From assembly GCA_020152595.1 (NCBI GenBank), contig JAIGNY010004273.1, positions 78,501 to 142,500 of the forward strand: DNA of 64,000 nucleotides, in the 5' to 3' direction. Made by a program: the position numbers and the translations under genes. This document shows, piece after piece, positions 9,482 through 60,154 of the stretch. This stretch comes from Chiridota heheva (taxonomy: Eukaryota; Echinodermata; Holothuroidea; Apodida; Chiridotidae). The stretch's first letter is position 1. Every line of letters starts with the position of its first letter. A model generated the notes under the pieces. That model was not told where the DNA came from, ran no database searches, and saw only the letters and a program-made list of their open reading frames with translations.

Positions 9482-9685
9482 TCAATCCGCATCGTCCCCC
9501 GTGCCTTCTTCTTCCGCATCGACGCTCCTCCTGTTGTCTCCCCCACCGGCGGCGATGGCGCCTGATCCGTCGGGTTGGGTCTTTTTTATTTCTTCCATCT
9601 TGCTGCAGTAGTCGGTGAAGACATCTCGAAATCGCGACCACGATTTCTCCGGTATGGTGATTGAGGTCCTGTATTGAGTTCTGGG
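9482..9685 (-). CDS. PURA: Pur-alpha terminal exon d: PUR repeat III C-half, acidic tail, stop
   Basis: Codes for 67 residues plus TGA (stop at 9484-9482), phase 0 at entry. The acceptor is attctcctttccag before CCCAGA. PRTQYRTSITIPEKSWSRF and then RDVFTDYCSKMEEI is the second half of PUR repeat III (strand, IPEKSWSRF turn, terminal helix). The tail after KKTQPDG is Gly/Ala-rich and then acidic (DAEEEGTGDDAD) and differs from the Gln/Glu-rich end of vertebrate Pur-alpha. The exon is GC-richer than its surroundings. No canonical AATAAA was seen on the sense strand within the next few hundred bases, so the 3' UTR end is not called. Confidence 0.93.
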   Translation of the reverse strand, partial: PRTQYRTSITIPEKSWSRFRDVFTDYCSKMEEIKKTQPDGSGAIAAGGGDNRRSVDAEEEGTGDDAD

Positions 9686-11071
9686 CTGGAAAGGAGAATA
9701 CAAAAATATATTTAAATGTCAGCAAAAACAAAAATTTAATGAAAATTGAAGAAGAAAAAATAATATTCTAAAATTTTAGGGGTTCCAAAACGTGACTGAA
9801 ATTTTTCTGAACTTTCTTTTCATTTTTATCACTACAAGTTTGGTTTATATGAATGCTAAGACACAAAACTTCACAATAAAAAAGTCAAAATAAAGAAAAT
9901 ATCGACATAAATATGCAAAAAAATTCTTGTCATTATAAAAATGGAGGATTTTTTTTACATATTTAGATTGTTTGTGAAATTTCCTTTTAAATGATACCAG
10001 TATAATTGTTTTTTTTCTCAAAGCAAAACCTGCAAAAACAATGAAAATGAACACACACAAAAAAAATTGCCACCGTAATTACTCGCGAAAATTAATGCCG
10101 CACATCTGGTGCAGTACTCGAATCCTGGCCATCTGCGTGATCTTCCCGAACACCAACTGCTGTACTAGACTGGCATGTACTAATGTGTGGGTTTGTTTTC
10201 ATAATTAAATATCGAGAAGAATACGGACGGAGGGGTTAAACCTATTGATTGTTTTTAATCCAAAGTACGTGGATTGGCCTTCATGACGGCATATTTCACA
10301 TAAGGGAGTTGTATCGCAATCAGAAACTTCAAATTTTGCCAAATTTTGGTCTCAAAAGGCTACAAATCATAATATGTTTCATAACTTTTGCCAAAAAATG
10401 ATATTGATGATAGGGGAAGTCAAAATTTGACCGAAACTAGATGCATTGATGTTTTTGTGTAAGTTCCTCATGGGTTTTCAGGCAAAAGCAAGGTCTGGAA
10501 GTTTTAAAGTCTTTGAGAAAGAAAAAAATAATCAATTTTCGTTAAATTTTGTGCATTTTTTTTTCATTTCAACCCATCTTTTTTTTCAAAATCTTCATCA
10601 TAAATAAGCCTCATCAAAACATTACATTTGCTGTAAAACTATTCCAGCTTTTCAAACGATACCAGGATCACTCTGTGGGCCCATTTGACAAAGTAAAATC
10701 ATTTTTGAAAAGTGCATATCCAATCAGTCGTGTCACGACCGAATGGTAATTTAAGGGCATTCAAAAATACTTTTTAAATATTATGAGATTTTAAATGCCT
10801 TCCTAAAGCTCCCCATTTCAATTTGTACCAAACTTGACATCAAATTTCCTTGGAAAATTCTAATAAACTTGAAGCCTTATTATACACTTTCCTTCCAAAA
10901 AATATTTGTTTTAAATTTAAGTTTGTCAAATTTTACATTGAAAGGTGCGATAACAGCATAACGACAGTCAGTTTTAATTTTTTGATTGGTCGAAATTTCA
11001 ACCAATTGCTATAGGTGTCTCTTCCGATCATATTTGCGCTATACTGATAATACATCCACCATTTTAAATCA

Positions 11072-11150
11072 GCAGTGTTGTGGCCGAGGCAGTGGGTTTC
11101 GCAATTGCTTTTGTGAAAAACGTAACGAGTTTGAATCTCGTCAAGGCAAC
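11072..11150 (+). mobile_element. tRNA-like sequence, probable SINE head or tRNA pseudogene
   Basis: GTTGTGGCCGAGGCAGTGG resembles a Leu/Ser-type A-box arm, and ACGAGTTTGAATCTCG a B-box stem-loop. The ends GTTG and CAAC can pair, giving a 4-5 bp partial acceptor stem. The middle does not form a clean anticodon arm, so a functional tRNA is unlikely. Confidence 0.5.
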
Positions 11151-11399
11151 TCTGTTCAACTCGGCCGTGTCATGTTGTCACCACACAGACATACCGTATG
11201 TACGTGATCTTCATACACACAATGTATATATTATACACTTCTTTGAATCTCTGAACAATTGTAATATGTTGATGACGTGTGTAAGTACATGCTATGTACT
11301 CACTGATGACATCAGACAGTTTTTCATGAAATACCCGCGCGCCGCACAATTACACTCCTAATTCCTTAACATTACACACCAGCAGGGCTTCCTTCCTAA

Positions 11400-12155
11400 C
11401 ATACCACCTAATTCTAAGTCCAAAACACCCCCTCTAATGATCTGACCTATTTCCAGAGACCTGATGGTATGTCTGCTCAACACAGACACACTATATACAC
11501 CAGATATTATTAACCCAGAGAGAGCGGAAAAATAACTCTTGACCTTTTTTTGTTTAATGTCACTTAGACCAAAAGTATTCAAGTCTTTAACCATACCGCC
11601 CCCACCCCCTCTAAACAATATAGACCTTCCTATCATTGTCAGTAACTGAGATATAGGAAAGAAATCATATACAGATTTTGAGCTGTCCACCGTCATAACA
11701 AATTCAGCATTAATTGAAAAAATAGATCAAACCTTGATTATGTACTCAAAAATTTTATTCTGAAAATATAAAACTGTTCAGATTGATTCATTTAACCAAT
11801 TATAGAAATGGCTAATTGTCCAAAGACCTTTAGTTTCTTTCCACAATTTTTCAGGCTATATTTAACTCCCATCCAAGTCTTTTTTAAAAAACAAATCTGA
11901 CATTTTTTCATGAAACAAACACCTCTTACAATCCAGAGCATACTCTCCAATTGCCCAAAATAACATAAGCTTTTCTTCCCAACAGTGCAATTTATATTCC
12001 ACTTAATTTCAATTCCAGAATACCCCCCTCTATTGATTTGACCTATTTCCAGAGATCTGATGCTATGTCTGCTCAACCCAGACACAACAAACGATCTGAG
12101 AAATTAAGGGAAAAAAATCCAGATATTAACCAGGAGAAGCCGAAAAAAAATTAAC
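11400..12155. repeat. Direct duplication of an unrecognised segment, about 600 bp apart
   Basis: Blocks at about 11400-11545 and 12000-12155 share ctgacctatttccagagacc, tgatg-tatgtctgctcaac, ccagatatta and the final aaaaataact-like end. On the minus strand both fall in open frames of about 100 codons that share the peptide LSRH-IRSLEIGQI-RGG. No family was recognised. Confidence 0.6.
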
Positions 12156-12539
12156 TCCGAGAGAAGAATTCCAATCTCATCACACTAAGAGTATAGGCAC
12201 TTGTGTTGGACGCAGTGAGCATTAGTGCAATAGGGCAGTAACGGCCATAGTGTGTGTGTATTGAGCATTCATTTCTTTTACTGTGTGTAAGTGATGCATG
12301 TACTGTGAGGAGCAAGTATCACATGGCATTCTCTCAGCTTGAGATCATTTTCTCGATATCTTGATAAATAATGTGTTGGAAGGTTCGTTAAGTGAGTGGT
12401 TGAAAGATACACAGACACTCCTAATTTGTTAAAAAAAAAAAAAAGGAAGACATTTTCAGAATATAAATTTGCATTTTCTTATAAATATTTAACTACAAAA
12501 ATTACAGTAAAGACAAAGAAAAATCGTTCTTTGAGCGTT

Positions 12540-14443
12540 AGATCATTTTCTTTTCATTCTTGGTTAATACCGTGTTGGAACATTGGTTGCAAGAATGGCT
12601 TCAAGATAAATGGGTGAAATCATTTTCTTCTTATTCTTGGTTATTACCGTGTTGGAAGATTGGTTGCAACAATGGCTTAAAGATGAATGGGTGAAATCAC
12701 TTTCTTCTTATTCTTGGTTAATACTGTGTTGGAACATTGGTTCCAACACTGGCTTGAAGATGAATGGGTGAAATCATTTTCCTATTATTCTTGGTTAATA
12801 CTGTGTTGGAACATTGGTTGCAACAATGGCTTAAAGATAAATGGGTGAAATCATTTTCTCTTATTCTTGGTTATTACCGTGTTGGAACATTGGTTGCAAC
12901 AATGGCTTAAAGATAAATGGGTGAAATCATTTTCTTCTTATTCTTGGTTATTACCGTGTTGGAAGATTGGTTGCAACAATGGCTTAAAGATGAATGGGTG
13001 AAATCACTTTCTTCTTATTCTTGGTTATTACTGTGTTGGAACATTGGTTCCAACACTGGCTTGAAGATGAATGGGTGAAATCATTTTCCTATTATTCTTG
13101 GTTAATACTGTGTTGGAACATTGGTTGCAACAATGGCTTAAAGATAAATGGGTGAAATCATTTTCTCTTATTCTTGGTTATTACCGTGTTGGAACATTGG
13201 TTGCAACAATGGCTTAAAGATAAATGGGTGAAATCATTTTCTTCTTATTCTTGGTTATTACCGTGTTGGAACATTGGTTCCAACACTGGCTTGAAGATGA
13301 ATGGGTGAAATCATTTTCCTATTATTCTTGGTTAATACTGTGTTGGAACATTGCTTGCAACAATGGCTTAAAGATAAATGGGTGAAATCATTTTCTTCTT
13401 ATTCTTGGTTAATACTGTGTTGGAACATTGGTTGCAACAATGGCTTAAAGATAAAAGGGTGAAATCATTTTCTTCTTATTCTTGGTTATTACCGTGTTGG
13501 AAGATTGGGTGCAACAATGGCTTAAAGATAAAAGGGTGAAATCATTTTCTCTTATTCTTGGTTATTACCGTGTTGGAACATTGGTTGCAACAATGGCTTA
13601 AAGATAAAAGGGTGAAATCATTTTCTTCTTATTCTTGGTTATTACCGTGTTGGAACATTGGTTGCAACAATGGCTTAAAGATAAAAGGGTGAAATCATTT
13701 TCTCTTATTCTTGGTTATTACCGTGTTGGAACATTGGTTGCAACAATGGCTTAAAGATAAAAGGGTGAAATCATTTTCTTCTTATTCTTGGTTATTACCG
13801 TGTTGGAAGATTGGGTGCAACAATGGCTTAAAGATGAATGGGTGAAATCATTTTCCTCTTATTCTTGGTTATTACCGTGTTGGAACATTGGTTCCAACAC
13901 TGGCTTGAAGATGAATGGGTGAAATCATTTTCCTATTATTCTTGGTTAATACTGTGTTGGAACATTGGTTGCAACAATGGCTTAAAGATAAATGGGTGAA
14001 ATCATTTTCTTCTTATTCTTGGTTATTACCGTGTTGGAACATTGGTTGCAACAATGGCTTAAAGATAAATGGGTGAAATCATTTTCTTCTTATTCTTGGT
14101 TATTACCGTGTTGGAACATTGGTTGCAACAATGGCTTAAAGATAAATGGGTGAAATCATTTTCTTCTTATTCTTGGTTATTACCGTGTTGGAAGATTGGT
14201 TGCAACAATGGCTTAAAGATGAATGGGTGAAAACATTTTCTTCTTATTCTTGGTTAATACTGTGTTGGAACATTGGTTGCAACAATGGCTTAAAGATGAA
14301 TGGGTGAAATCATTTTCTTCTTATTCTTGGTTAATACTGTGTTGGAACATTGGTTGCAACAATGGCTTAAAGATGAATGAGTGAAATCATTTTCTTCTTA
14401 TTCTTGGTTAATACCGTGTTGGAACATTGGTTGCAACAATGGC
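12540..14443. repeat. 77-bp satellite, about 24 copies with higher-order structure
   Basis: The unit carries attggttgcaacaatggctt, aaagataaatgggtgaaatc, attttcttcttattcttggt and tattaccgtgttggaac. Variant units (ggttccaacactggcttg; cctattattcttgg; 75-bp units with tctcttattc) recur in a fixed order every 4 units, about 307 bp (compare 12612-12919 with 12919-13226). The array ends abruptly at the LINE fragment. Confidence 0.93.
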
Positions 14444-15735
14444 TGTCTTGTCTTTGGAGAATTTAAAACCGTTGTTGTTGCACCAGGCTTGCAGCCGGTT
14501 AAGGTTGAGTTGAAGCCTATTTTCGACAAGAGGAAAGTTTGGGAAGGAGTAGAAGATGGCGAAGTCGTCCACGTAGAAGGCATGTTTGATGTTGGGGCCA
14601 AGGTTGTCCACAATGTGTTTAACGCTCAGGTTGAAGAGAGTGGCAGAGAGGATGCTGCCTTGGGGGACGCCCTCTTCTTGGGGATAGGGGTTGGAGAGAG
14701 TGTGGCCAATACGAACTTAGAACTGCCTGGGTGAGAGGAAGTTTTGAATAAAGGTGGGGAGGTGGCCTCTGAGGCCTATGGTGTGAAGTTTGCAGATAAT
14801 GCCATATTTTCAAGTAGTGTCAAAAGCTTTCTCGAGGTCGAAAAAGATGGCAATGAGGTGTTCCTTTTTTGCAAAAGATTCCCGGATAACAGTGTCGAGT
14901 GTAATTAACTGGTCTAGGGTATTGCGAAGTTTCCGAAAGCCGCTTTGCTAAGGGAAGAGGATTCTATTGGTCTCAAGGAACCAGTTTAGTCTCTGGTTAA
15001 TGATCCTTTCCATAATTTTACAGAGACAGCAGGTAAGGGCGATGGTGCGGTAGCTGGAGGGGTCGGTACTGTCCTTTTCCGGTTTGAGGACAGGGGTGAT
15101 GATAGCTGTCCTCCAGATAGGGGAAGGAGTGTGAGGACCAAATGTGGTTGAGGATGGCGAGTAGGGTAGTGGTGGCCTTGTTGGAGAGGTGTTTCAGAAA
15201 TTGGTAGGGAATGTTATCTGGGCCCTTGGAGGTGCAGCCAGCATCATAGATGGCTTGATTTAATTCAGAAAGGGTGAGAGTGGTGTTATAGCTCTCGGTG
15301 TTGTCAGAGGGAAAGGTGACACTACGGGTTTCATCGTGAGCTTTTTTGGCTTTAAAAGCATTGGAATAGTTGGCTGAGGACGAGATGTTGCTGAAAGAGG
15401 CAGCGAGGTGGTTAACGATGTCTTTTTTTGTGGTGAGATGGTTACCATTCCGGGAGAGATGGGAGACTTGCTCACCCTGCCATTGAAGCTGTTAACCATT
15501 CTCCAAATCTTCTTAGTGGGGGTGTTGGTGGTGAGAGAAGAGATGGAAGTTGTTGCAAGTGTTGGTTTTACTGTCCTTGATAGTGCGCCTGGCTTTGGCT
15601 CGGCTGATGCGAAAGAGGTTGAGGTTGTGGGTGGTTGGGTTAGTTTTGAAGTTCCTGGGGACCCTTTTCCTGTTCTTGATGGCAGTTTTGCAGTCATCAG
15701 TGAAACCAGGGGTTCACCTTTCAAGTATGAATTCA
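14407..15735 (-). pseudogene. Degenerate non-LTR (LINE) reverse transcriptase
   Basis: Minus-strand translation reads, in order: TPTKKIWRMVNSFNG (upstream RT linker); DAGCTSKGPDNIPYQFLKHL; RTAIITPVLKPEKD; YRTIALTCCLCKIMERIINQ; QSGFRKLRNTLDQL; AIFFDLEKAFDTT (RT motif A region); KYGIICKLHTIGLRG; EEGVPQGSILSATLFNL (motif B); HAFYVDDFAIFY (catalytic YxDD box as YVDD); and RLQAWCNNNGFKFSKDKT. This is the palm of an I/Jockey-like LINE RT; the clade is a guess. It is dead: at least two frameshifts (near 15520 and 15110) and in-frame stops, including one in place of the Trp expected after FDTT and one just before QSGF. Neither the endonuclease nor the 3' UTR is seen, and the 3' side breaks off at the 77-bp satellite. 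Confidence 0.9.
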
Positions 15736-16156
15736 ACTTGAAATTACAAATACTTTAGGCACTCATATCAAGAGTACTACTGTACTACATTGCTGTCATT
15801 TTTATTGTTACATTGTGGAAGCTGGCATGCAAACCCCACTTTGCCAAACGTATGGCTTATCCAATCTACCCTCCACCCAAACTGGTTCAGATAAACGAGG
15901 CATAACTGTAATAATGATAATACTGTGTTCTTATATACCACTATATCCATGCAAGTGCATACTCAATGCACTTACAATAGAATGGCAGCAGCCTTCAAAG
16001 GTGTCCACGCCTGTACTATTATTACCCTATCCCTTACGCTAAGTGCACCAAGCGAGAGCGCAGCAGGGGCCATTTTTTTAAGTCGTCGGTATGATTGGAT
16101 CCACAACTTTCCAGCTGGAAAGAGTTTTAGAATAAGAAAGCAAGCATTGCAATTAC

Positions 16157-16275
16157 CTGTACTTCGCTGATACGCATGTAGATTCCCCTATAGTTGTTTC
16201 CGATGTCAAAATAGAAATGTTTATTTTCTACCCAGAATGCCGAGTTCTCTGGAAGAACTGGTTGACTTTCCTCAG
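16157..16275 (-). CDS. PURA: Pur-alpha exon c: PUR repeat III N-half
   Basis: Starts with the last two bases of the split alanine codon and then codes for 39 residues, leaving in phase 0. The acceptor is tatctttccatag before CTGAGG and the donor is GTACAG|gtaatt. The peptide [19 protein letters not shown] and then [20 protein letters not shown] is the first half of PUR repeat III, the repeat used for dimerisation in Pur-alpha. FYFD-G-N--G--MR-SEV is the signature strand pair. The extension [12 protein letters not shown] of the raw open frame comes from a GATTGATT-type repeat in the intron and is not coding. Confidence 0.95.
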
Positions 16276-16289
16276 CTATGGAAAGATAC

Positions 16290-16760
16290 AAAATAGATTG
16301 ATTGAATGATTGATTAAATGATTGGTTGATTTTTGTAATAATTTGTTGATCAATTGAATGATTGGTCGATCTCTTAAATGATTGATCAATCAATCACATG
16401 ATTGAATGACTGAATAAATGGTCGATCTCTTGAATGATTGATCGATCCCTTTAATGATAGGTACATTGCTTACATGATTAATTGGTTGATTGATTGATTG
16501 ATCACTCTATTAATTGGTCGATGTTTTAAATGACTGATCGATCAATTAAATAATTGAGAGTGAATAGTCGATCTCTTCAATGATTGATTGGTCAATTACA
16601 TAATTAAGAATGATTTGTCTATCTCACAAAGGATTGATTGAATGATTGGTCAATCTAAATATGATTGGCGAACTAAATATGATCAATTGAATAGTTGGTC
16701 AATCCATTGAATGGTTGGTCAATCCACTGAATGATTGATCAATTGAATGAGTGGATTTGA
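16290..16760. repeat. Degenerate GATTGATT / TCGATC low-complexity repeat
   Basis: Imperfect units such as gattgattgaatgattggtc and gatctcttaaatgattgatc run for about 470 bp right up to the exon c acceptor. A short related patch lies at 16895-16915 and another at 17575-17605. Confidence 0.8.
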
Positions 16761-17119
16761 TGAAACTTTTAATCATGCAGTACCTTTCAGAGATAATGTA
16801 ATCAGCTTTTTTTAGACCCCCACCCCAACCCTGTTTGGGCATTGACTTCACCACTGTTGAAGAAATGAAAGGTTGAGGTTCACTTTGCTAATGAATAATT
16901 GATTGATTGATCTATCAAATTAAAATGAAATTTGTCCAAATGCAGTTTCTTTCCTAAATAATATTTCAGTGGCATATTCAGTGGGGGACATGGGGGAATC
17001 CCCCCCCCCCGGGAAAAATTCCGTAAGTAAAAGGTATTAGAAGGATATACTAGTACACAATATATTATAGCACATATCAGTAAATTAACTGTAATAAAGC
17101 CCAATTTTCTTCATTTTCC

Positions 17120-17360
17120 TAAATTTCATTCATTATCGGACATTTTTTCAATGTTCAGGAAATTTTCTTCAATTTTCGGTAAATTTCATTCATTTTCGGG
17201 AAATGTTTCCAGATTTTACCAAACTTTCCAATAATTTTACGAAACTTTTCAATACTTTTAACAAAATTTCCAATACATTTAACAAAATTTCCAATACTCT
17301 TATCAAAATTTCCCCCCAATTTGCAATGATTTTACCAAAATTTAACCAAATTTACCAAAA
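17120..17360. repeat. Degenerate short A/T-rich tandem repeat
   Basis: Two themes: ttcattcattttcggaaatt-like units (17120-17210), then aattttaccaaaatttccaa-like units (17210-17360). Both have periods near 20-35 bp and are strongly diverged. Confidence 0.6.
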
Positions 17361-18004
17361 AAAATTGAATCTTATATTAATAATTATCAACAAATTTTAC
17401 CTCCCAACCAAGGAGAAAGCATGCCCGGAAAGGTGAAATCTTATCAGGGGCAATTTTCTCCTCTCGATTTAGCCTATTTTCCCTGGCACCAAAAAGCTGA
17501 ATATGCCCCACTCTCTTTGGATGCTAGCTTCACCACTGTGGAAGAAATGAATGGTTGAGCTTCACTTTGCTTATGACTAATTGATTGATCGATTGATTGA
17601 ATGATTAATGAAACTTGTTAGTATGGATTACCTTAATTTCATATTAATGTTACAAAAATTCCTTTACCCCCCAATTTCAAATTAATGTTACAAAAATTCC
17701 TTTACACCCTCCCCTCCCCACACTTTTTGGATTTTGGCTTCACCATTGATGGCACAAGTTTGTTATAGTTAGGACACAAAACCCTTGAAGAAACATCTGA
17801 TATTTGCGATGGATTAATTGCTTCAATGACCGATGAGACTTCCTGGCGCATTGAAGTTACCAGACTAAATGTGATACATGTGATACCACCACTCACTGGT
17901 GGAAGAACAAAATGGGAAAATAACCACCGTTTTTCAACAAAAAATATGATTTCCTACAAGTTTGAAACTGTAATTTCTAAATCAACAAACAAGAACTACA
18001 TGTG

Positions 18005-18233
18005 CTCTATGAACTATAGATCCTATTTTAAACAACAGACTGATATCAAATATACTAGATACCTCTATGAACTACAGATCCTGTTAAACAACAAACTGAT
18101 ATCAAATATACTAGATACCTCTATGACCTACAGATCCTACGTTAAACAACAAACTGATATCAAATATACTAGATACCTCTATGAACTACAGATCCTATGT
18201 TAAACAACAAACTGATATCAAATATACTAGATA
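18005..18233. repeat. 58-bp satellite, left part (4 copies)
   Basis: The unit is ctctatgaactacagatcct, atgttaaacaacaaactgat, atcaaatatactagatac. The array is cut at a TA dinucleotide by the transposon and resumes at 23146 in the same unit phase. Confidence 0.95.
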
Positions 18234-18254
18234 CAGTACAGTCGGGAATAACCG

Positions 18255-18400
18255 ACACGCTAAGTGCGGGCGTTAGTGCACTTACCACCATGATGAATGG
18301 AGCTGCCCAAGCGCAAAATCGCGCTAACGTGGGTTACCGCTAACATCACCGAGCTTGCAGCCCTGCAGCTTCTATTCACCTGTGACTTAACGCGCTAAAA
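18255..18400. promoter_or_regulatory. Left subterminal GCGCTAA motif cluster of the TIR element
   Basis: Copies of (GC)GCTAA or its complement occur as acacgctaagtg, gggcgttagtgc, atcgcgctaacgtg, taccgctaacatc and aacgcgctaaaaat within 150 bp of the terminus. A matching cluster lies at the right end (22860-23110). Confidence 0.6.
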
Positions 18401-19818
18401 ATCGATACACACTGTATGCATTATGTCAATCAAGATCGAAGTGCCTGTGCTTTGTAAAGGACTCCTAACGTTGCACAGTTATAATAATCTGCTTATCGGA
18501 TTAGGCCTGGCAGACTTTTTCTTTAGCAAAATGTTTTAACGCGAGGCCTAGAGGAATTAAAAACTTTCGTAAAATATTATTTTGTTTTTATTCAGTTTCA
18601 CGTTGAACTCTGGGATATAAATATGTTTTTAATTCAGTCAGCATCGCAACGTTCAGAATCACAGTACACAGTACATAGGCCCTACTTGCAATATTCGCTA
18701 CGAAATGAGGCAATGTCTTCATTTGCATTGCATTTTTTCGGACGGAATTTTCAATAAAAATACTTATTAAATCCTTTGGGAAAAAAATTGATGTGAAAAT
18801 TGAATCAATTCTTGATTGAATTTAATTTTTTACAGTTTTGGACAAACAAAATGAATTTCAGGCAAACAAAAACTGATTCTGGCGATGTTTTTGATTGAAT
18901 TTAGCTATCCTATCACACAGTCACATTAAAAGCCTAGCGTTAGGCTACATGCTTTAATCGATGTGTAATGGTGTTCTGCTTTTGTTATACAATTAGAATT
19001 AGGACATAAGAGCTAATATTTCTAAGCTTTGCTGATATTGGTAGGAGGGTTCTGTTAAATATTAATGACTAAATATTTCGTTTGATATTTTCACGATTAT
19101 AGATCTACTGTTAGGCCAAATGTTGAGGATGGGAAATGAATAATTTTAAACTGATGTTGACATGTTTGTCTTATATTTTTCCACAGCTTCCGAACTTCTG
19201 AGCCTTTGTCAGTTTTGCAGATTAGACAAGATACATTGAAAAATCCTGGGCCAGTATGGATGCTTATTAATTGCTTTGTCAGTCTAAGTCAACAAGAATT
19301 TACAAAAAACTTTAAAGAGCTTTTTTTTCCCTTTTGCATGAATAATTATTTTTATAGTAACATTTCTACGCCATTCTGTCAGCAATCCAATATCAAGGAC
19401 ATCCGGCTTCAGCCTGTATGAAGAAAAAAACAGCTACAGCATTTGGCCGTGAAAAAGAGGCAGAAGTCAGAGGGTCTATAAACTCGTGTCGCGTTGAACC
19501 TTTCTTTCTTACTATTAGGCCTACTTGATACAGTAAATAAAAAAATTCCTGTGCATGTGTCAAGTAATGTTGGGCGTAATGAAATGCTGTTACTGCTTTT
19601 TTTCTTCCACTTGTGTAGAGTACTTTTTTATATTCCAGTTTATGTACAAAACAGAGTGAGTGATATTAGAAAAAGTGTAGGCCTAAATTAACTAAGCTCA
19701 ATTGGGTAAAAAAAGAAGTGAAATTTAGTGCTGTCAAAACTGCACATAAAATAGGTAAGCCTGCATTGCTTCATTCCATGAAAATTGCAATATCAGGGTG
19801 GTAGAAGGCATTGAATAT

Positions 19819-20143
19819 CAGGGCCTCCGACATGGGGAAGGGCATAGCCCCCATTCCGAATAATGTTCCCCCTTCCCGAATAATGTTCCCCCTTCTCGAA
19901 TAATGTTCCCCCTTCCCGAATAATGTTCCCCCTTCCGAATAATGTTTCTCCTTCGAATGTTTCCCCCTTCCCGAATAATGTTCAAAGCAATGGTTTTCAA
20001 ATTGGTCTTGTGTTAATTATAAAAGCAATGGTTTTCAAATTGGTCTTGTGTTATTTATCCACAACAAAATTAATTGACAACATTAATCTCCCCCTTCCCC
20101 CTCCTCCTCTCACCTGCCATATGAAACCTGTGTCAGGGCCCTG
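19819..20143. mobile_element. Nested MITE with CAGGGCC ends
   Basis: Left end CAGGGCCTCCGACATGGG; right end reads inward CAGGGCCCTGACACAGG. A 5-bp AATAT flanks both sides. It contains a 20-bp array (19851-19983, unit ccttcccgaataatgttccc, about 6 copies). It lies inside the 18234-23145 transposon and is related to 56989-57128. Confidence 0.65.
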
Positions 20144-20699
20144 AATATTGGTTTGATCATATTTATGTAGATCCTATTTTTAAAATATGATACAGGACTT
20201 AGGTTTTTGATAGGATTTTCTCCACAGATGACCGATGGTGGTTAAAGGTGAAGTGAAGCCTGGTCCAATTCTTAATTATCATTTTACCTGCTTCCTTTTT
20301 TTTTTACCCAATGTCTTGTTTTTAAAATAATTATATTCCATAAAGTTATTTTCTGTCGGAACTTACCTCCACTCTTGACTAACTGACTTGGTTTTACTTC
20401 ACTTCATTTCAAATGTTTGATCCATGCTTCTTTGTGAAGTGGTACGAGAAAATTTAAACGAATATTTTCCCTGCCATCGGGTAATATACAGTACAACATC
20501 CCGTCACAGACCTGGTTATAACAGAGTTTACCTCAGCAGGTACAAGTGTTGCTACCGCATAAGACTTCACATTTCCAGGAATCAAAAACAGAAGATTTCC
20601 ATCATGCCTAATTGAGCATCTTAACATTTTCTTAAAAATTTGGCAGATATATTCTATCATTATTAACTAGCATGCTTGTTTGGCATAACGACACATTAA

Positions 20700-21292
20700 A
20701 GGAGGCATAAAGTCTGATACAATCATTATTTCATATGATAGAGAATACAAGATCTTAACCAACTGCCAAAAACAGAGTCAAATTCCTATCTCAAGTTATT
20801 CATGTTTGAAATGGACACAGGGGGGCTGCCATTTTGTTCAATTCTGTATTGAAATATTGTGCATGATGACAGATTCCCCAATAGGGACATAAAGATTATA
20901 ATGTAATTCTTTACATATGTGATTAAAGTCTTTTATTTCAAAATGATGTGACACAAAGTTATATCAGCATGTTTTGATTTTTCAATTTCATGAATACACA
21001 AAATTTTCCTTCACCCTTACAAAATAAAAACACTTGTTCATAAGCTAGAAAACTTGAGGTACATTTTAAAGAAATACAAAGCATTCCAAGATCCTGCTGG
21101 GCGATGACATAATCTGCATGTTTTGCAATCAAAATGGCAGCTACCATGGTACTATAAAGTAGTAGCATTAAAGTTTTTAACAATTAAACAAAAATATGTT
21201 AGATTGCTTCGAAGTTATGGAACTTGGTCAGAAAATTAGTTATTTTCAATTCTATTATATGAAATAAAGAATTATGTCAGACTGTGCCTCCT
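20700..21292. mobile_element. Nested MITE with TTAA target site
   Basis: TTAA at 20696-20699 and 21293-21296 flanks inverted ends AGGAGGCATAAAGTCTGATA and AGGAGGCACAGTCTGACATA, alike apart from a 2-bp indel and a few mismatches. It is 593 bp with no coding potential seen. TTAA preference is typical of piggyBac-mobilised elements. Confidence 0.68.
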
Positions 21293-22859
21293 TTAACAGT
21301 GAAGTCATTTGTGCCAAAAGAGGTTATATATGAATGATTATTGCTTTAGATTGACTAACATTTAACATTATGTAATGTTTTAATCAGCAAACTATATATT
21401 CCAGCTTATAAATACCTCTGCTTTTAAATGCAATCGATGGTGAAACTCATATTGAGAATAGTTCAAAGAAACGACCATTTTTAACAGCTGTGGTTATGAT
21501 ACACATCCTCAGTATGGTTGACATTGAGATTGTGGAAGCAAGTTGTTAAGAACAAATAAACTAATAGTCGTTAAGAACAAATGGGACTCACCACGAAATA
21601 CAATCATTATTTCCATAAAATTCCCTCAAGGAAGGGGATCCCCTTCCTGCAGTAATTTTAATGATGAAGTAAGGAATTGTAAATGAAGGCCCAAGCAGTA
21701 CTCAGGCATGTGAGAGACACTTGATAAAAAAAAGCTGAAAGTAGCTTATTAAAAATAAATGTTGAAAAATTAAAAGCAGTTTATTGCTGGCGCGAGAGGC
21801 GCTTGGCGAATCAATGCGCTGAAACACTTTTGGCGTGGGGCCAGGGGCCCACTTAAGGGTTCCTGGTGGGGTCAAGGAAACAGAAAATTTGATTTTCTGT
21901 GACTAGGAAAAAGGTCTCCTGAAAGAATTTTTTATTTTAAAGAAGCTGATTTTCTTAATAAATCACCCCCTCCCCCTTCAAAAAAAAAAAGAAGGAATTT
22001 CTATCAACTTTTCATTCAGAGCAGAATATAGTTCAGGCATGTCAGCAGCATTGAAAAAAAGTCATTAATGACGTGATCTGACGTCATGTTTTGATGTTTA
22101 TAAATCAGTGGAAAATGAAAATAACTGCATCACAATTGCCACAAACCCCATTAGCAATATCATGGCACCCTTAAGGGTAGAGTTGGTTCTCTATTCCTTC
22201 TACCATAGCACCACAGTGGACATAGGTTGGGCCAAGTCCGGGTGACATAATGGCGGGCCACTCCATAAATGTTGCCAATAAGGGTTTAAGGAACCATTAA
22301 CTGACATCCATGTACCAATATTCCATTTTCACAAGTACATAGTCGGGCGAAGCCAACAGTCGGGAAATGGCAGTGACAAGTTAAATGCTTTTAACGATTA
22401 TCTTAACTTTTTTATTCTTATTGTGAGTTAAAGTCTTCACTTCTCTCAAAAATTTCCAGTAAATTCTTGCATTTGCATTTCCAAAAGGGGCTGAAATTTA
22501 CTTAAAATCAATGATTCATCTGATTGATACATCTCAAAGACAGCAATTAACGTTTTTAAAACTATTTTCGATCAAATTTAACCTCTGGGCTGTCTCTCTA
22601 TAAATTATCACGGTTAGGCCTAACATTAGGCCTTTCACCCAGTTTTACTATAAGATGGCAACTAGCCTAACATACTGTACGTTCAAACTTCGAAGGAATA
22701 AAGAAAAGTCTGGCGAAATCGTATTAACGTTAGACTTGTCTAATAAATTACAGTCTCAAAGTATGTAAGAAATCTACGCTACACACAGGTTTTACGGCAG
22801 AATTTTTTTGTTTATCTCGCAAAAGAAGACAAAAGTTTCGCTGAAATAAATTTATAAAA

Positions 22860-23115
22860 CACGTGCTAAGTGCAGTGATGCATGTACACAGATTGGGATT
22901 ACACTCGGTGCAGTTACGTTAGGTATGCGCTAACAAGCTTAGCGCAATGAGACGTAATACTATTACGCGCTAACCTCTTTGAGGAGGAGCAGATTAAAAT
23001 GGGATTATCGGACGCCGCTTTAGCAGAGTTGGGGCAAGTGCCGTCGGTGCATGAAAGACACGAATACAATGGCGGTAAGGGCATTAATCGCGGTAAATAA
23101 TCCGCGCTAACTGCG
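22860..23115. promoter_or_regulatory. Right subterminal GCGCTAA motif cluster of the TIR element
   Basis: The motifs cacgtgctaagtg, tatgcgctaacaag, cttagcgcaatg, acgcgctaacctc and tccgcgctaactg mirror the left-end cluster. This zone is CpG-rich compared with the AT-rich interior. Confidence 0.6.
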
Positions 23116-23147
23116 ATATCGGTACGCTTATTCCCGACTGTACTGTA

Positions 23148-23785
23148 CCTCTATAAACTACATATCCTATGTTAAACAACAAACTGATATCAAACATACT
23201 AGATACCTCTATGAACTACAGATCCTATGTTAAACAACAGACTGATATCAAATATACTAGATACCTCTATGACCTACAGATCCAATGTTAAAGAACAAAC
23301 TGATATCAAATATACTAGATACCTCTATGAACTACAGATCCTATGTTAAACAACAAACTGATATCAAATATACTAGATACCTCTACGAACTACAGATCCT
23401 ATGTTAAATAACAAACTGATATCAAATATACTAGATACCTCTATGAACTACAGATCCTACGTTAATCAACAAACTGATATCAAATATACTAGATACCTCT
23501 ATGACCTACAGATCCTATGTTAAACAACAAACTGATATCAAATATACTAGATACCTCTATGACCTACAGATCCTATGTTAAACAACAAACTGATATCAAA
23601 TATACTTGATACCTCTATGAACTACAGATCTTACGTTAAACAACAAACTGATATCAAATATACTAGATACCTCTATGAACTACAGATCCTATGTTAAACA
23701 ACAAACTGATATCAAATATACTAGATACCTCTATGACCTACAGATCCTATGTTAAACAACAAACTGATATCAAATATACATGAAC
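23148..23785. repeat. 58-bp satellite, right part (about 11 copies)
   Basis: Continues the same unit as 18005-18233, with gaactacag/gacctacag variants. Together with the left part it made a single array of about 15 copies before the insertion. Confidence 0.95.
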
Positions 23786-23799
23786 AAACTAAACTCACT

Positions 23800-24240
23800 G
23801 TAAAAGATTTCCTTAAAAACATTACAAAAATTCCCCTTGGAAATCCCCTTATTTAATGTTTAGATTTCCCCTTTATACCACCAATTCTACCATTCACCTA
23901 AAAATCTCCTTTGTAATTATAATGCTTCTACAAATTCACCTACAATTAATACTGTGAATCCCTTTAAAATAAAGCCAGATTCCCTTTTTAATTAATTCAA
24001 AAATTCACCTTTAATTAATGCCAAAGTTCCCTAATATTTAATGCAAAAATTCACCTTTTAAATTAACACCTAAATCCCATTTCAATTAATCCCAAATTTC
24101 CCTTTTAATTAATGCAAAAAAAAAACACCTTTTATTCGATGGAAAATTCCCCCTTTCAACTTAATGCCAAAATTCCCCTTTCACTTGAAATATTTTTTTG
24201 CTTTCTTTAATTCCCCTTTCGGTCGTCTTTGAAGGAATGA
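23800..24240. repeat. Degenerate about 30-bp A/T-rich repeat
   Basis: Recurring ttaattaatgccaaaattcc and aaattcaccttttaattaa themes with irregular spacing and high divergence. Confidence 0.6.
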
Positions 24241-24811
24241 ACTTGACTCTTAACATTAATTCCCTCGGCACACCTTACCCAAAATTTCCCTAGATGTTCC
24301 CATAATGTCACACCTGTATTTACACTGTAGCTTGGCTTCTCTTTCATTTTTGAATGGGTAATTCCCCAATTTTACATCTGAATCTATTAACGACCTTGAC
24401 TATTAAATCTATACATCACTTTCATTTTATTGGTACAATATGAAATGATCATTGCTATGTTTAACGGGAATTAAATCAAAGCGTTAATGTTTTATATTTT
24501 TGGGAAACCTTTCACTCTCTAATACTTTTCAAAAGAGAATTTCTGCTTTTATATGTTTCTTAGAGCTTTTCAAAACTATGAAATTTGTTTATCAGTTAAA
24601 AAAAAAGAAATATTTACTGATATTTATGTGGCTGGTACTGTTTGTTGTAGTAGGGTTTAGGTCTTTGATGCTGAGAATTGGGTTTGCCTAAAAAAAAAAA
24701 AAAAAAAAGGTCAGGATGGGTCTTAATTTTTTTTGGAAATTCTGTAAAGTGACGAGGTCATGACCCCTTGTTCCCAACCCTCTGAATGACATACAGAAAA
24801 CTCCCCCTTAC

Positions 24812-24932
24812 CTGCAGTTTCGTCCGTTCCGTATTCTGCTAGAAGTTCTGTAAGGGCATCTTTGAACTCTACAAGTCCTTGGGCAGGCACAGCTATTTGA
24901 ATTCGAGGACCCCGGTCTCCCGTTTGCGAAAC
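24812..24932 (-). CDS. PURA: Pur-alpha exon b: PUR repeat II C-half
   Basis: Codes for 40 residues plus one base of a split alanine codon (entry phase 0, exit phase 1). The acceptor is ttctttggcag before GTTTCG and the donor is GCAG|gtaaggg. The peptide starts [19 protein letters not shown] and continues [15 protein letters not shown], which is the conserved second half of PUR repeat II (strand I-x-I-A-V-P-A-Q-G, then the amphipathic helix). It ends in the TDETA linker before repeat III. The open frame runs past both splice sites on the raw strand, but those extensions have no Pur similarity, so the splice-bounded form is preferred. A degenerate LINE fragment sits about 100 bp upstream in the sense direction (25033-25405). 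Confidence 0.95.
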
Positions 24933-47475: not shown

Positions 47476-47499
47476 CGTTGTCGTTTTACATTAAAAGGA

Positions 47500-48480: not shown

Positions 48481-48807
48481 CTTTCTCTTCTTTGTTTCAG
48501 TTTCAATCAATTAATCCAAAGTAGTCAGAAGGTGACACATGACACAATTCTAGTGACCACTCCAAGCAAGCAGACTTACTTATTGTCTACCTTCACCTTT
48601 CTGTTTCTTTTGAAGCCATGAACTGGCATGACCACTGAAATAATCCTTTAAAATGCAATTATCGAATGGCATTTTGAACATGGGATAATGTTACTTTCCT
48701 GCAACGATATATAGATCTAGATTAAACCATTGAGATTTTCCATGATTTGTTACAATCATTAACATGGGACTTCCCCTAAATCTGTAATACACAGTGTGTT
48801 CTAATGA

Positions 48808-49715: not shown

Positions 49716-49729
49716 CTCTTCTGTGAATC

Positions 49730-50660: not shown

Positions 50661-51179
50661 TGTATGAACGTTCGTATTTCCGAAGTTTGATCAGACACGT
50701 GATAGGTTGAATAAATTCATATCATCTTTTATTGTACATGGGTGGGGTCAAAATAATCTCTGTAATCAACGTTAACCTTCGACCTCCGCTTCTAAGAATG
50801 ACACAAAAGCATAAATTTAAGCCAAAGTCAAACCACAACTGACACCAGCATTTATAATTCACACTGTCGCTATGGATACCCGGAAGTTGTTACCTCACTT
50901 CTTACAATTCAAAAACATTTACGAAATCACTTTCGTTCAATCTGCAGAATTCATTGAACTCGGAACCTTCAATTAATTGCAGTACGTGAGAACCGAAAAC
51001 TGCAGCAGGATATCCGATCCCCGTTTCACATTTAAACATTATCTACGTCAATATAAAATAAGATTTGAGACATTTATTTAAAGGTTTACAAGCTTTATTG
51101 TTTGAAACAGGGTTAGGCATTAAACGAAATGGAATGAACTTTTACTTTGTCGCAGTTCACAGATTCATTTGAGGTCATT

Positions 51180-53684: not shown

Positions 53685-53979
53685 ATTAAAGGAATATTTC
53701 CATGTTTTTTGTAACCTTTCTTAAAAAAAGAAAACAATTTTAGAAACAATTAAGTACAAAAATCATGTTGATATGTTATTCCTACCAGGAAATATTCAAA
53801 TTTTAAGATTCACAAAAAATGCCAATAAACGATTAGGAAAAGGCTCAGTATGACATCACAGCAACACATTCTCCTACAAAGTTTTTGTATTTCATTAAAA
53901 TCTATCATCCTTTTTTTTATTATTGGTAAAACCTGCTAGAAAAATAGATTGATAAAAGATAGGTATTTATATACTTTGA

Positions 53980-54545
53980 ATGACCAGCATCATGTTGTTA
54001 AAGACAGTTAAATAAGTTTTAATGGCAAGAATTTTATCAGAAATTGCAGGAAAAATGCAAAAAGAAACTTAAATTTCATAATTAGGTTGTATATGTTGTT
54101 CCTTGGGTACTGTATAATATGGTACATGTATATGATTGTCAAAATTGAAATACACAGAAGGATAGATTAGGCATAGTAACAGGATATATTACTGGAGAAC
54201 AGTAGGGGGCAGCGCTACAATATATTACTGATGAACTGTAGGGGGCAGCGCTACAATATATTACTGATGAACTGTAGGGGCCAGCGCTACAACAGACAAG
54301 GAAGAGGAGTAACAGAGAGTGAAATATGGTTACTGGTTTGTATTTGAACCATTTTCGAAGACATTAAAACGATTGCAGCAGGAAAAAATTCTGAAAGTAA
54401 AGCTGAATTCTTTTGACAGTCATTCCGCATTACACAAACTGGACTGAGAGCTTGCCTTGACAAAGTTCAATGAGTAGGCCTACCATTGGGATTTTCCCAT
54501 GCACTTATGGACACACCAATTGTGTGAACAACTGAGCGAACGTTG
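53980..54545. repeat. Segmental duplication, right copy, with unexpanded 51-bp unit
   Basis: Matches 51220-52120 in order. At the place where the left copy enters the 51-bp array, this copy has one degenerate unit only: attttcccatgcacttatgg, acacaccaattgtgtgaa, caactgag. A local 44-45 bp triplication (54180-54296) is specific to this copy. Confidence 0.75.
54180..54296. repeat. About 44-bp triplication carrying CTCF-like motifs
   Basis: Three copies of actg-tgaactgtaggggg, cagcgctacaatatatt. Each contains AGTAGGGGGCAGCGC (one copy GGGGCCAGC), close to the CTCF core consensus. The homologous site in the left segment (about 51881) has a single ACTAGGGGGCAGAGC. Confidence 0.6.
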
Positions 54546-55104
54546 TTGAACGACATTATTGACATAGTTAAAGTAGTTTTAATCATACTGTATGTGGCGA
54601 AACAAGTTTGAAAGGCATTTAACCATAATTGGGAAAATTGTGACAACTCTGCATAATGTAAACGACTATACCAAAAAAATAGTATGTACTGCGAGTATTT
54701 TCAATCGTAGCTGTATGTGTTGTGGCAGGATAAGTTATGGCAAAAATTTCATCAATTGAGCAACAGGGGCTTTCTACCAAAGCTCAAAATTAGCGTATGA
54801 CCACTAGCCTGGGGCTAGTTTATTTTGCGTAGAAGCTAGCATAATTTCAAACATTCAAGGCCATCTGGCTAGTCCTGTAATCAGAATTTCTTTAATATGT
54901 TTATATGTGACTTGTAGAAGCAGGCTTGTGGAAAATTCAGTCCGGCTAGTAAAATGAAGCTAATTTTGAGTCGTAAGTCCTACAAGCTCATTTGTACAAC
55001 AGATTGTAACTTGTTTGCATGCTTGTACATGTCGCAGGTAAAGCTACTATGAAATCTTCCAAGTGCCATCTATACCTCTTTTAGCTTAGATTCAAGCTCC
55101 ATGG

Positions 55105-55563
55105 TCATATGTCTATTGCAAAGTATGGCCAAGTCGTAAGGCAGTGCAGTAGCCCAGTGGTTCTATTGCAAAGTATGGCTGAGTCGTATGGCAGTGCAGT
55201 AGCCCAGTGGTTCTATTGCAAAGTACGGCCGAGTCGTAAGGCAGTGCAGTAGCCCAGTGGTTCTATTGCAAAGTATGGCCGAGTCGTAAGGCAGTGCAGT
55301 AGCCTAGTGGTTCTATTGCAAAGTATGGCCGAGTCGTAAGGCAGTGCAGTAGCCTAGTGGTTCTATTGCAAAGTGGGGCTGAGTCGTAAGGCAGTGCAGT
55401 AGCCCAGTGGTTCTATTGCAAAGTATGGCCGAGTCATAAGGTAGTGCGGTAGCCCAGTGGTTCTATTGCAAAGTATGGCCGAGTCGTAAGGTAGTGCGGT
55501 AGCCCAGTGGTTCTATTGCAAAGTATGGCCGAGTCGTAAGGCAGTGCAGTAGCCCAGTGGTTA
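55105..55563. repeat. 50-bp minisatellite, 9 copies, derived from a SINE tRNA-like head
   Basis: The unit is ctattgcaaagtatggccga, gtcgtaaggcagtgcagtag, cccagtggtt. Each unit holds the A-box-like TAGCCCAGTGG. The last unit runs directly into a complete SINE family A copy. Confidence 0.95.
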
Positions 55564-55735
55564 GGGTGTTGGTCTCGTAAGGTACTGGATCAAATCTCAG
55601 CCAGGGTGCTATGGTGTGTCCTTGAGCAAGACACTTATATCCCATTTGCTCCAGACCCCTCAGATGAAAAGAGTACCAGCTTCGGCTGAAATTTTAATCT
55701 GCTATGGACAGGCATCCCAAACAAGACACTCACAT
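55514..55735 (+). mobile_element. SINE family A copy at the end of the 50-bp array
   Basis: Head GCAGTAGCCCAGTGGTTAGG (A-box) and ACTGGATCAAATCTC (degenerate B-box), then the body tgtccttgagcaagacactt, atttgctccagacccctca, gagtaccagcttcgg, ctatggacaggcatccca. It ends at the inverted-repeat element that starts near 55739. Confidence 0.8.
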
Positions 55736-55738
55736 TTA

Positions 55739-55853
55739 CCATTATACTCTTTTTTAGTACTTAATAAACTCTGTACCAGAATAGCTAACAAACATTTGGT
55801 TTACTATTCTGGTACAGAGTTTATTAAGCACCCCAAAAGAGTATAATGGTAAA
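55739..55853. repeat. Near-perfect inverted repeat (about 47-bp arms)
   Basis: accattatactcttttttag, tacttaataaactctgtacc, agaatag pairs with ctattctggtacagagttta, ttaagcaccccaaaagagta, taatggt across a loop of about 20 bases. Related arms recur inverted at 56690-56790 and again at 56805-56950, so this is part of a TIR/MITE cluster. Confidence 0.8.
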
Positions 55854-55904
55854 TGTGAAGGCTTTATTCCAGTCCATTTTAAAAATAGAAATCCATTTTG
55901 AAAA

Positions 55905-55962
55905 TAGAAGTTGTATAAAGCGCTTTGATCCACAGGAAAGGCGCTATACAAATAAGTGCAAT
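55905..55962 (+). mobile_element. LINE-type 3' tail before the AAT microsatellite
   Basis: gtataaagcgctttgatcc and ggcgctatacaaataagtgc resemble the GCGCT-rich 3' tail of L2-type LINEs and SINEs that use them. It ends in the AAT repeat, as such tails often do. Confidence 0.5.
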
Positions 55963-56391
<429 letters not shown>

Positions 56392-56392
56392 C

Positions 56393-56480
56393 CCATCCAA
56401 GGAGAGTCATTTGCTCTCACCCACTTGTGCCATGGAAATTAAGCCCCGCCTTTATAAGCCTTTAAGGCTTGATGGTATTT
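56393..56480 (+). mobile_element. SINE family A, 3' end fragment
   Basis: cccatccaaggagagtcatt, gctctcacccacttgtgcca, tggaaattaagccccgcc, aagccttaaggcttgatgg. This is the tail half of family A, followed at once by another copy. Confidence 0.65.
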
Positions 56481-56485
56481 AACTT

Positions 56486-56615
56486 AACTAACTAAATCTG
56501 CAATGGACATGGCGTCCCGTCCAGGAGAGTCATGTACTCTCGCCCGCTTAGCGCCATGGAAACCGGGGATAAGCACCAGCCCTATGAGCCTAATGGCTCA
56601 GAAGGATTCAACTTT
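56486..56615 (+). mobile_element. SINE family A, 3' part
   Basis: ctgcaatggacatggcgtcc, ccaggagagtcatgtactct, cgcccgcttagcgccatgga, ccggggataagcaccagccc, tatgagcctaatggctca. It has a clean family A tail. Confidence 0.75.
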
Positions 56616-56689
56616 TTTTGAACTACAATAATACGTCCCTTTAAGACAGAGCTAACATCAGGAAGAGGAAGCACAATTGTTTACACTGA

Positions 56690-56950
56690 ACAGCTTCTAT
56701 TTTCAAAATGGACTGGAATAAAGCCTTCACATTTACCATTATACTCTTTTTGGGTGCTTAATAAACCAAAAACTCTGTATCAGAGTAGTAAACAAAAAAA
56801 AATTCTTGAAGGCTTTATTCCAGTTCTTTATTAAAAATCATTTTGCATGACTTGTTTATTTTTAAGTACCAAAAAAAAGTATAATGGTAAATGTGAAGAC
56901 TTTATTCCAGTTCATTTAAAAAAATTAAAAAAATCTATTTTGAAAATAGC
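56690..56950. mobile_element. Inverted copies of the 55804-55912 arm (MITE cluster)
   Basis: 56690-56790 is the inverse of 55804-55912 (attttcaaaatggactggaa, taaagccttcacatttacca, ttatactctttttgggtgct). 56805-56950 repeats the arm in the plus orientation with changes. Exact element ends are not resolved. Confidence 0.6.
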
Positions 56951-56988
56951 TGTTACTGATGCAACATTAATGAATTGAGGATGCTGCA

Positions 56989-57128
56989 CAGGGCCCCCGA
57001 CACTGTGGGGGAATCATGCCCCCAAATAATTTTGAAACAGGCCTTATTTGCTTGAATTGTTTAACAAACAAATGACATCGGTCTTTCCCCCGCCCCCTCC
57101 CAATATGAAACCTGTGTCGGGGGCCCCG
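56989..57128. mobile_element. Small MITE with GGGCCCCCGACAC ends
   Basis: GGGCCCCCGACAC at 56991-57003 and its exact inverse at 57114-57126. Internal cccccgccccctcccaatat and gaaacctgtgtc match the right part of 19819-20143, so both belong to one family. Confidence 0.65.
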
Positions 57129-57409
57129 TGACAAATGAGCTATTAGAGTGACATGAAGTCTGCACGTAGGAGAACCAGTATGCTACCATCAAGCTCAGAA
57201 AACTTCTATCGATCTCAAGAATTTTTGCAAAACAAAATGTCATCTTGTAAAATGAAAATAAAATTTTATCAAGTTTCAATAAAATAATTAGAAAAATGAT
57301 CCATGAGTAAATCTGAGAACTATGTTTAACTACAACTGAGGCTTAGAGACACAAAAAAAACACTACTTTATCTGAACCCAAACCACAGCAGCTGTGCCAC
57401 CTTGCCAAT

Positions 57410-58005
57410 AAGAATGTAAAGTAGGTAAGAAAGGACACATATATGATGTAGTGGACTTACAAAACCCTTTCACTTCTTTCACAAAAAAATATGAAATACA
57501 AACAAAACTGCATGGTGCACATTCCTTGAAACCACAAACAAAGACTCTACCAAGACCAGTGGAAGGAAACCTCTTTGTCAGATCAAATTCCAGGCAGTTA
57601 CCAGAATAAATGATTCACCTAATGTTGCTCTAATTTTTTTTAATGAATATCACAAAGGAGTGTTTTAATTTTAGGTTAAAAACCTTTAAATGTGTTTTCT
57701 TTTTTTGATCAAAAACTTGTTTGGCACCGTTACCTGGCAAGGGTTGGCACGTTGGCCACAAAACCACTTCTGTAGTAGAACGACAGCTGTGCAATGCCGT
57801 TAGTAGTCTTCACATATAAGAAAGGACACGTTTGTGACTTACCCAACATGTCACTTCTTTCACAAAAAATAAAATACATGTACAAACAAAAATGCATGGT
57901 GCACATTCTCTGAAACCACAAACAAAGGCTATATCAAGACCAGTGGAAACCCCACTAAATACCAGGCAGTTACCATCATAAATTATTCACAACTGTGCGT
58001 CTCAT
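57410..58005. repeat. Direct duplication of about 200 bp
   Basis: 57410-57620 and 57805-58000 share aagaaaggacaca, tcacttctttcacaaaaaat, gcatggtgcacattc, tgaaaccacaaacaaagact, aagaccagtggaa and ccaggcagttacca. Confidence 0.7.
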
Positions 58006-58274
58006 TTTTTCCCACAAAGGATTGTTCTTTGAGCATACAAACCCCTGCCAATCCAACAACCACATTTTTAGCAGAGTTTGTATTAAGGTTGAATTCATAC
58101 CAAAATATCAGGTATGGGTACCCCAAAAATAATGGGATCTATACAAAATAAAAAAAAAATCTAGCTCTACAAAATTTGCGAAACTGCTATGTTATTAGGC
58201 TTACACTAAAATTACGATAATTTCACAAACTCAACACCAAAAATAAGCTGAAGAATGTCACTCAATTTTTTTGG

Positions 58275-58490
58275 AGTTAGTGTAGTTACCGTGATTTTGG
58301 TGTTCGCCTTATAATAAACCAGTTCCGCGAAAATAGAAGAGCTAAAGGGGGAAAAAATAGAATTGTTTTTTTGTTTTCCTTTTTTTTTGGGGGTTATCCG
58401 TTACCATGATTTAAGTGTTCGCCTAATAATAAACCAGTTCCGCAAAAATAGTAGAACTGAAAGGGGAAAAAATGGATCCTTTTTTGTTTT
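58275..58490. repeat. About 115-bp duplication
   Basis: Two copies share gttaccgtgatttt-gtgttc, gcctaataataaaccagttc, cgc-aaaatag-agaactga and aaggggaaaaaat, with T-rich spacers. Confidence 0.75.
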
Positions 58491-59689
58491 TCTTCTTCGG
58501 ATATTCGTATTGGAACAGGGTAGCAGTAACGGGTGCCTAGTTCCAATTTTTTGCTATCCGACTCAGGCCTAGTTTGTATTAAAAAATGTGCATATGAAAT
58601 TCTTGGTAATCAGTTAGGAAATTGGAATACTGCTGATCATGGCTGATTCAAAGCACAATCAGGATCAGTAAATTGCCCGTCTGAGCTCAACCATTTATTA
58701 ATATTTCATCTTTTTTATGAATTTTATTATTTCAAATGTTAAAACTTAAAAATTGAAGGAGAAATTCTATTAATTTTGATGGATTGAGTTTTTCTATAGA
58801 AAAAAAGTTTACAACAGCAATGATTTAATGTTAAATCTCTCTGAGAAGCAAAGAAATTCTTTTAAGGAATATTTTTTATCTTTTTTGAATGTAATCTTTT
58901 CATATTTTCTTCTTACTTTTTGCTTTGAACAATAATATTACAATTAGTAGTCAAAAAAATAATAGTAATCGGAATCAAGTTTCGGATCAGACCGAATATG
59001 ACAAAGTCTGATCGGTAATCGGCAGAACCGATTACAGTGTAATCTTTGGGCAGATCAAATTATTTTGATGATCTAGTGTTTGGGAAAAATTTATGGTATA
59101 ACACAATATTGCATAAATGTATGTGGATATACGGATATACAAAGAAATACAGAGATCTGTTTTAAGTAAAAATTTTGAAATAGATGCTTGACGGACAAGT
59201 ACTTCAGCAATTCATCAAACCCTGTCCACCAGAAGAGCACTGCAGTCTTGATCGTATAAGAAAGGTTTGATTTCCGCAGTGCATTTCATAATGAACTTCC
59301 AAAGCTATTAAAAACTGGTCTTCCAACCCCTTCTAATGAAACCACAATTAAAAATGAACACCCTTCAAATCTATTTAAGTCTTAGTTGCAAATCATCTGC
59401 ATGGATAGGCCTCATTCAGCACAATCTCATCCTCACTTTGCTTGAGTGTACTTTTACACAAAAGTTCCATGTATGCAGTAGGATCAGTTGATAAGTGGTC
59501 AACTCACATAACACTGTGGCTTTGTGTATAGTCAGTCAGTCAGTCAGTCACTGGAGCAGTTGTGGTTTTGTATCACTGATTTAAGAAAAGATTATCATAT
59601 ATCGGGGAAGGGGAAGGGGGGGGGAATATAACCTCCTGATCAAAATGTAGAAAACAGCTGGGACATGTGGGGTAAAAACAATAGCATGA

Positions 59690-59895
59690 GAAGTTTGTAA
59701 TGCGAGTGCTGCATTGTGTCATTGAGCAAGACACGTCACTCTGCTTGCTCCAGTCCACTCAGCTGATAGTTTGTGTACCAGCACCATTGGGGAATTAACC
59801 TATGATGGACTGGCATCCCATTCAGTCATATGCTGTTTTCTATAAACAGAGGTAAGCACACATGGGCCTTCATGGCTTATGGTGGATTTAACATT
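59690..59895 (+). mobile_element. SINE family A copy beside Pur exon a
   Basis: tgcgagtgctgcattgtgtc, attgagcaagacac, ttgctccagtccactcagct, tgtaccagcaccattgggg, gatggactggcatcccatt, taagcacacatgggccttca, tggctta. It lies only about 40 bp downstream of the exon a donor. Confidence 0.75.
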
Positions 59896-59932
59896 TAACT
59901 ATCATCATCATCAATTCTTCTCAACGACTCAC

Positions 59933-60154
59933 CTTTAAAAAGCGTCCTCTGGCATTTTCTTTGAGGTCTAGGTAGTATCGTCTATTGTCGGACATAATCT
60001 GTTCACTTTTTATCCGGCCATCTTCGGGAATATTGTCTGGGTTGGCAGGCCCCAGTTGAGCATAATGCTCGCTGAATTCTGTAAGATAATCTCTCAGCTC
60101 TGCGGCAGCTGGCATTCGCAGAGTTAACCTCCTCTTAGGACCCCTGCCGGGAAC
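59933..60154 (-). CDS. PURA: Pur-alpha exon a: PUR repeat I C-half and repeat II N-half
   Basis: Codes for 74 residues, phase 0 at both ends. The acceptor is tttttaacag before GTTCCC and the donor is AAG|gtgagt. The first part, [17 protein letters not shown] followed by [10 protein letters not shown], is the beta-helix second half of PUR repeat I. After a variable linker (about residues 34-48), [19 protein letters not shown] and GRFLK form the first half of repeat II, including the aromatic and basic strand that contacts nucleic acid in Pur proteins. The exon starts in mid-repeat with no upstream methionine in frame, so it is internal; the preceding exon is outside the window. Two degenerate copies of its 5' edge and acceptor lie just upstream (see 60190-60340). 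Confidence is high because the motif order, frame and both splice sites agree. Confidence 0.95.

Follow-up and report, generated by a model that had tools for sequence, protein, structure and literature searches.

The stretch of DNA analysed in this work, hereafter the window, comprises 64,000 nt of the genome of Chiridota heheva and corresponds to positions 78501-142500 of a contig in an assembly of 1.1 Gb and 3,744 contigs. Its minus strand carries four exons of a predicted Pur-alpha gene, here designated exons A to D from 5' to 3'. Exon A (59933-60154) encodes the second half of PUR repeat I, a linker and the first half of PUR repeat II, and exon B (24812-24932) the second half of PUR repeat II. 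Exon C (16157-16275) encodes a linker and the first half of PUR repeat III, and exon D (9482-9685) the second half of PUR repeat III and, as read off the sequence, an acidic C-terminal tail, ending in a TGA stop codon. Joining of these blocks by a script showed that they fit together in phase via GT-AG sites. The lengths of the exons are 222, 121, 119 and 204 nt, respectively, and the joined frame of 666 nt consists of 221 codons followed by TGA, without stop or frameshift.

The entry phases of exons A to D are 0, 0, 1 and 0, respectively, and exon A, with its 74 codons, is in phase 0 on both sides. The acceptors of the four exons are AACAG/G, GGCAG/G, CATAG/C and TCCAG/C (exon boundary marked by a slash), and the donors of exons A to C are AAAG/GTGAGT, GCAG/GTAAGG and ACAG/GTAATT. 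The 5' edge of exon A is thus an AG acceptor as well, in addition to the three GT-AG introns. Exons A and C each have a single open frame. A second stop-free frame is present in both exons B and D; these second frames are not PUR-like, and it is the joined frame only that resembles PUR.

Subtraction of the exon coordinates gave sizes of 35,000 nt for the intron between exons A and B (24933-59932), which contains many tandem-repeat arrays, 8,536 nt for that between exons B and C (16276-24811), and 6,471 nt for that between exons C and D (9686-16156), which contains a 77-bp array and a reverse-transcriptase fragment. The first-pass annotation had described four minus-strand blocks with agreeing splice sites and phases, separated by repeat-rich introns of 35, 8.5 and 6.5 kb and spread over more than 50 kb of coding part; its coordinates turned out to be exact to the base, and the intron sizes and the overall extent (9482-60154) agree with our computation. 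Its picture of a four-exon gene holds for the window, which does contain four exons, but not for the gene as a whole, as the N-terminal exon or exons lie outside this count and only part of the gene is present. No AATAAA hexamer was found at 6501-9481 on the sense strand. ATTAAA occurs there six times: once at 7009 and five times inside the tandem array at 8298-7926.

Family identity of the joined product

The joined protein matched the Pfam family PurA (PF04845) with 229.8 bits and an E-value of 3.1e-68, covering profile positions 38-219 of 219. The exons were also trimmed to whole codons and scored singly. The scores of exons A to D were 89.4 (E 2.8e-25), 38.9 (8.1e-10), 43.6 (2.8e-11) and 27.2 bits (2.9e-6), all four above the curated cut-off of 25 bits, and the profile stretches covered were successive (38-109, 119-151, 156-191 and 191-219). 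The PUR repeats are arranged in the order I-II-III; repeats II and III are complete, and repeat I is represented in the window by its second half only.

A search against solved structures gave Drosophila Pur-alpha as the best match (5fgp, 1.7e-47; 3k44, 2.9e-47), followed by human 8chu (2e-38), and repeat III matched the Drosophila structure 5fgo (3.8e-23) and the human structure 8chw (1.6e-15). Seven of the ten structure matches listed are Pur-alpha, and the other three have E-values of 0.28 or higher. When stretches of Drosophila and human Pur-alpha were compared with the window by tblastn, the exons were matched with a best E-value of 1.2e-27; the identical queries gave no match below E 0.14 in the reversed window. 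These results bear out the assignment of the 221-residue product to the C-terminal part of Pur-alpha, and the alignment of the joined residues to Pur-alpha proteins, a check proposed by the first-pass annotation, placed it in the Pur-alpha family and not in a non-Pur family.

Short exons lying among long repeats, in a window with 67 stop-to-stop frames of 100 aa or more, many of them spurious, might be mimicked by open frames that resemble a split gene merely by chance. The PurA profile scores of the joined frame and of the single exons rule this out, the reversed control having done no better than 0.14, and the probability that remains for such a coincidence is negligible. Judged by its sequence, the gene is a Pur-alpha orthologue of the invertebrate type and an ordinary copy of the gene of a well-known protein that binds DNA and RNA.

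The N-terminal part and the copy number of the gene

PurA profile positions 1-37, which correspond to the first half of PUR repeat I and the N-terminal region, were not found in the window by tblastn, nor was the start codon; therefore, at least one further coding exon is needed if the gene is whole. At E < 1, the N-terminal queries matched nothing in the window but repeats II and III of the Pur-alpha gene itself. The upstream end of the window with respect to this minus-strand gene (60928-64000) is occupied by a 36-bp tandem array. We extended the search with Drosophila and human queries to 248,558 contig bases past the window end and found no convincing N-terminal exon there; three 5-kb stretches (15,000 bases) read N, one of which (5,000 bases) adjoins the window, so that the readable upstream DNA searched amounted to 233.6 kb. 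A candidate at 147695-147630 had an E-value of 0.11 (0.035 in a smaller search of 80,000 bases) and two internal stops, and it was not accepted. When the Drosophila N-terminal query was run against the whole assembly, two weak matches were obtained, neither of which is the missing exon: one is repeat II of the Pur-alpha gene (E 0.08), and the other (E 1.46) has an internal stop and was taken as a chance match. Either the initial exon or exons are very short, or they fall in unread sequence or are lacking from the assembly. The start codon and the first half of repeat I would be encoded outside the window, by at least one exon further upstream.

Local alignment of the sequence just upstream of exon A (60155-60325, 171 bases) revealed that the acceptor region of this exon, together with its first 30-40 nt, is present there in two further, decayed copies arranged in tandem. 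The copied exon starts are at 60325 and 60229, and the alignment scores of the copies are 75 and 69; the highest scores among 300 mononucleotide shuffles for each copy were 45 and 40. Only the copy at 60229 retains the AG acceptor (TTTTTTAATAG); its use would extend exon A by 75 nt and bring in in-frame stops. A search of the assembly with the 321 bases at 60100-60420, in which simple repeats and highly frequent words are passed over, returned no place but their own; this suggests that the copies are a local duplication rather than a dispersed repeat.

A search of the assembly for the PurA family yielded three matches at E <= 0.001, all on the contig that contains the window and all of them exons of the Pur-alpha gene; only four candidates were scored in this search, and exon D was missed. 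The same family search gave matches in none of 14 control genomes. All three matches being in the Pur-alpha gene, a single copy is favoured and is probably present, although this does not amount to proof.

The N-terminal part is missing from the window, from the readable contig and from the genome-wide search, and decayed acceptor copies adjoin exon A; these observations could indicate that the locus is a pseudogene or part of a gene duplicate, in which exons persist while a complete functional gene is absent. On the contrary, a single consistent frame with GT-AG sites runs open through all four exons, which cover successive stretches of the PurA profile, the family search detected no other PUR locus in the assembly, and the 5,000 N bases directly past the window could contain the missing exon. 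We consider it very unlikely that the locus is such a remnant. With high probability, it is the 3' portion of a Pur-alpha gene that is ordinary and probably intact and single-copy. The repeat-rich genome of 1.1 Gb is most likely that of an invertebrate animal, as indicated by the coding introns and by a match to Drosophila Pur-alpha closer than that to the human protein.

Repeats and other content of the window

Besides the exons, the window contains several tandem arrays. A 77-bp unit is repeated about 25 times at 12542-14444, and the array runs into the end of a reverse-transcriptase frame at 14408-14716 (RVT_1, 1.9e-15). Inspection by eye indicated that the 77-bp unit, on the minus strand, appears to contain the last residues of this frame, as if the minisatellite may have grown from a retroelement gene. 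The 36-bp array at 60928-64000 consists of about 85 copies with 92% matches, reaches the window end and shows an extreme strand skew, with a GC skew of -0.59 in the bin 60001-64000. A 58-bp unit forms two arrays (18005-18234 and 23146-23779) about 5 kb apart in the intron between exons B and C, and an AAT-type microsatellite of 432 bp with 95% matches is located at 55960-56391.

Ten frames without obvious repeats were picked by eye from the 67 frames in the window and examined for nested genes; a reverse transcriptase was the only one above the Pfam cut-off. No Rfam match at gathering level was obtained in the window. The bacterial and archaeal genome contigs gave 81 pattern matches, none of which was confirmed, and the plasmids gave no match to window positions 10000-16000.

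The idea that the introns act as a sponge by offering Pur-alpha motifs on the sense strand was not supported by motif counts at 9482-60927. Triple GGN occurs 22 times on the sense strand versus 23 on the antisense strand, double GGN 142 versus 135 times, and 12-base purine windows 89 versus 274 times. GGGG, with 224 versus 175 occurrences, is the sole sense-leaning motif (331 versus 175 when the 36-bp array at 60928-64000 is included).

Intron positions within the PUR repeats

Alignment of the PUR repeats, in which the hairpin is uncertain by a few columns, placed the intron of repeat II at column -3 and that of repeat III at column +2 when the intron of repeat I is taken as column 0; each of the three is in phase 0. 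The fourth intron is in phase 1 and lies between repeats II and III. The three introns may sit in the same hairpin, after the GRFLK strand, an assignment inferred from the fold described in PMC7990775. In 400,000 random draws of four introns, one intron per repeat within five columns occurred with a frequency of 0.011, and with equal phase too of 0.0019; both values are to be read with the pattern and the five-column limit having been set post hoc, and with repeat and linker lengths and phase frequencies that are approximate assumptions.

The positions are not identical, and a shared origin would therefore require later shifts; separate insertions are the simpler reading of the three phase-0 introns. 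It is improbable, in our estimation, that these introns go back to the intron of a single-repeat gene that became triplicated, with vertebrate PURA losing its coding introns later, and that the acceptor at 60229 is a poison splice site tuning Pur-alpha levels. Among the literature matches listed, judged by titles and abstract openings, there was no paper on intron positions within PUR repeats.

Proposed working and comparison with Drosophila and human Pur-alpha

The splice sites and phases suggest that the primary RNA would be spliced across the 35, 8.5 and 6.5 kb introns to give the joined frame. According to the review PMC7990775, repeats I and II make up one PUR domain, repeat III dimerises, and single-stranded DNA and RNA are bound. 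By analogy with this family, repeats I and II of the Chiridota heheva protein would pair into one intramolecular nucleic-acid-binding PUR domain, and repeat III would be used for dimerisation. The protein is likewise predicted to bind purine-rich single-stranded DNA and RNA and to take part in transcription and mRNA handling. By itself the gene is of small import, being one more Pur-alpha orthologue; it shows that the Pur-alpha coding part can extend over more than 50 kb.

Pur-alpha of Drosophila melanogaster (CG1507; 5fgp, 3k44, 5fgo) is the best match among solved structures, has the same order of PUR repeats and shares the linker residues around PEDG; it differs in sequence, the two longest stretches aligned by tblastn being 56% and 64% identical. 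Human PURA (8cht, 8chu, 8chv, 8chw) has the same PUR repeats I-III, but the alignments show that the human protein carries insertions in the I-II linker as well as inside repeat II. The coding introns of the Chiridota heheva gene, which the human gene lacks, are the main difference. Coding introns in invertebrate Pur-alpha genes are not surprising.

In human PURA, as reported in PMC2992531, the coding sequence is intronless and the 5' leader contains two introns, of 5,939 and 830 nt. The contrast with vertebrates drawn by the first-pass annotation is thus valid for the coding part and does not extend to the whole gene, since introns are present in the human 5' leader (PMC2992531). In PMC7990775, the lack of introns in human PURA is read as a sign of selection against gene rearrangement. 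The interrupted orthologue in Chiridota heheva suggests that such a constraint on rearrangement, if real, is not common to the whole Pur family.
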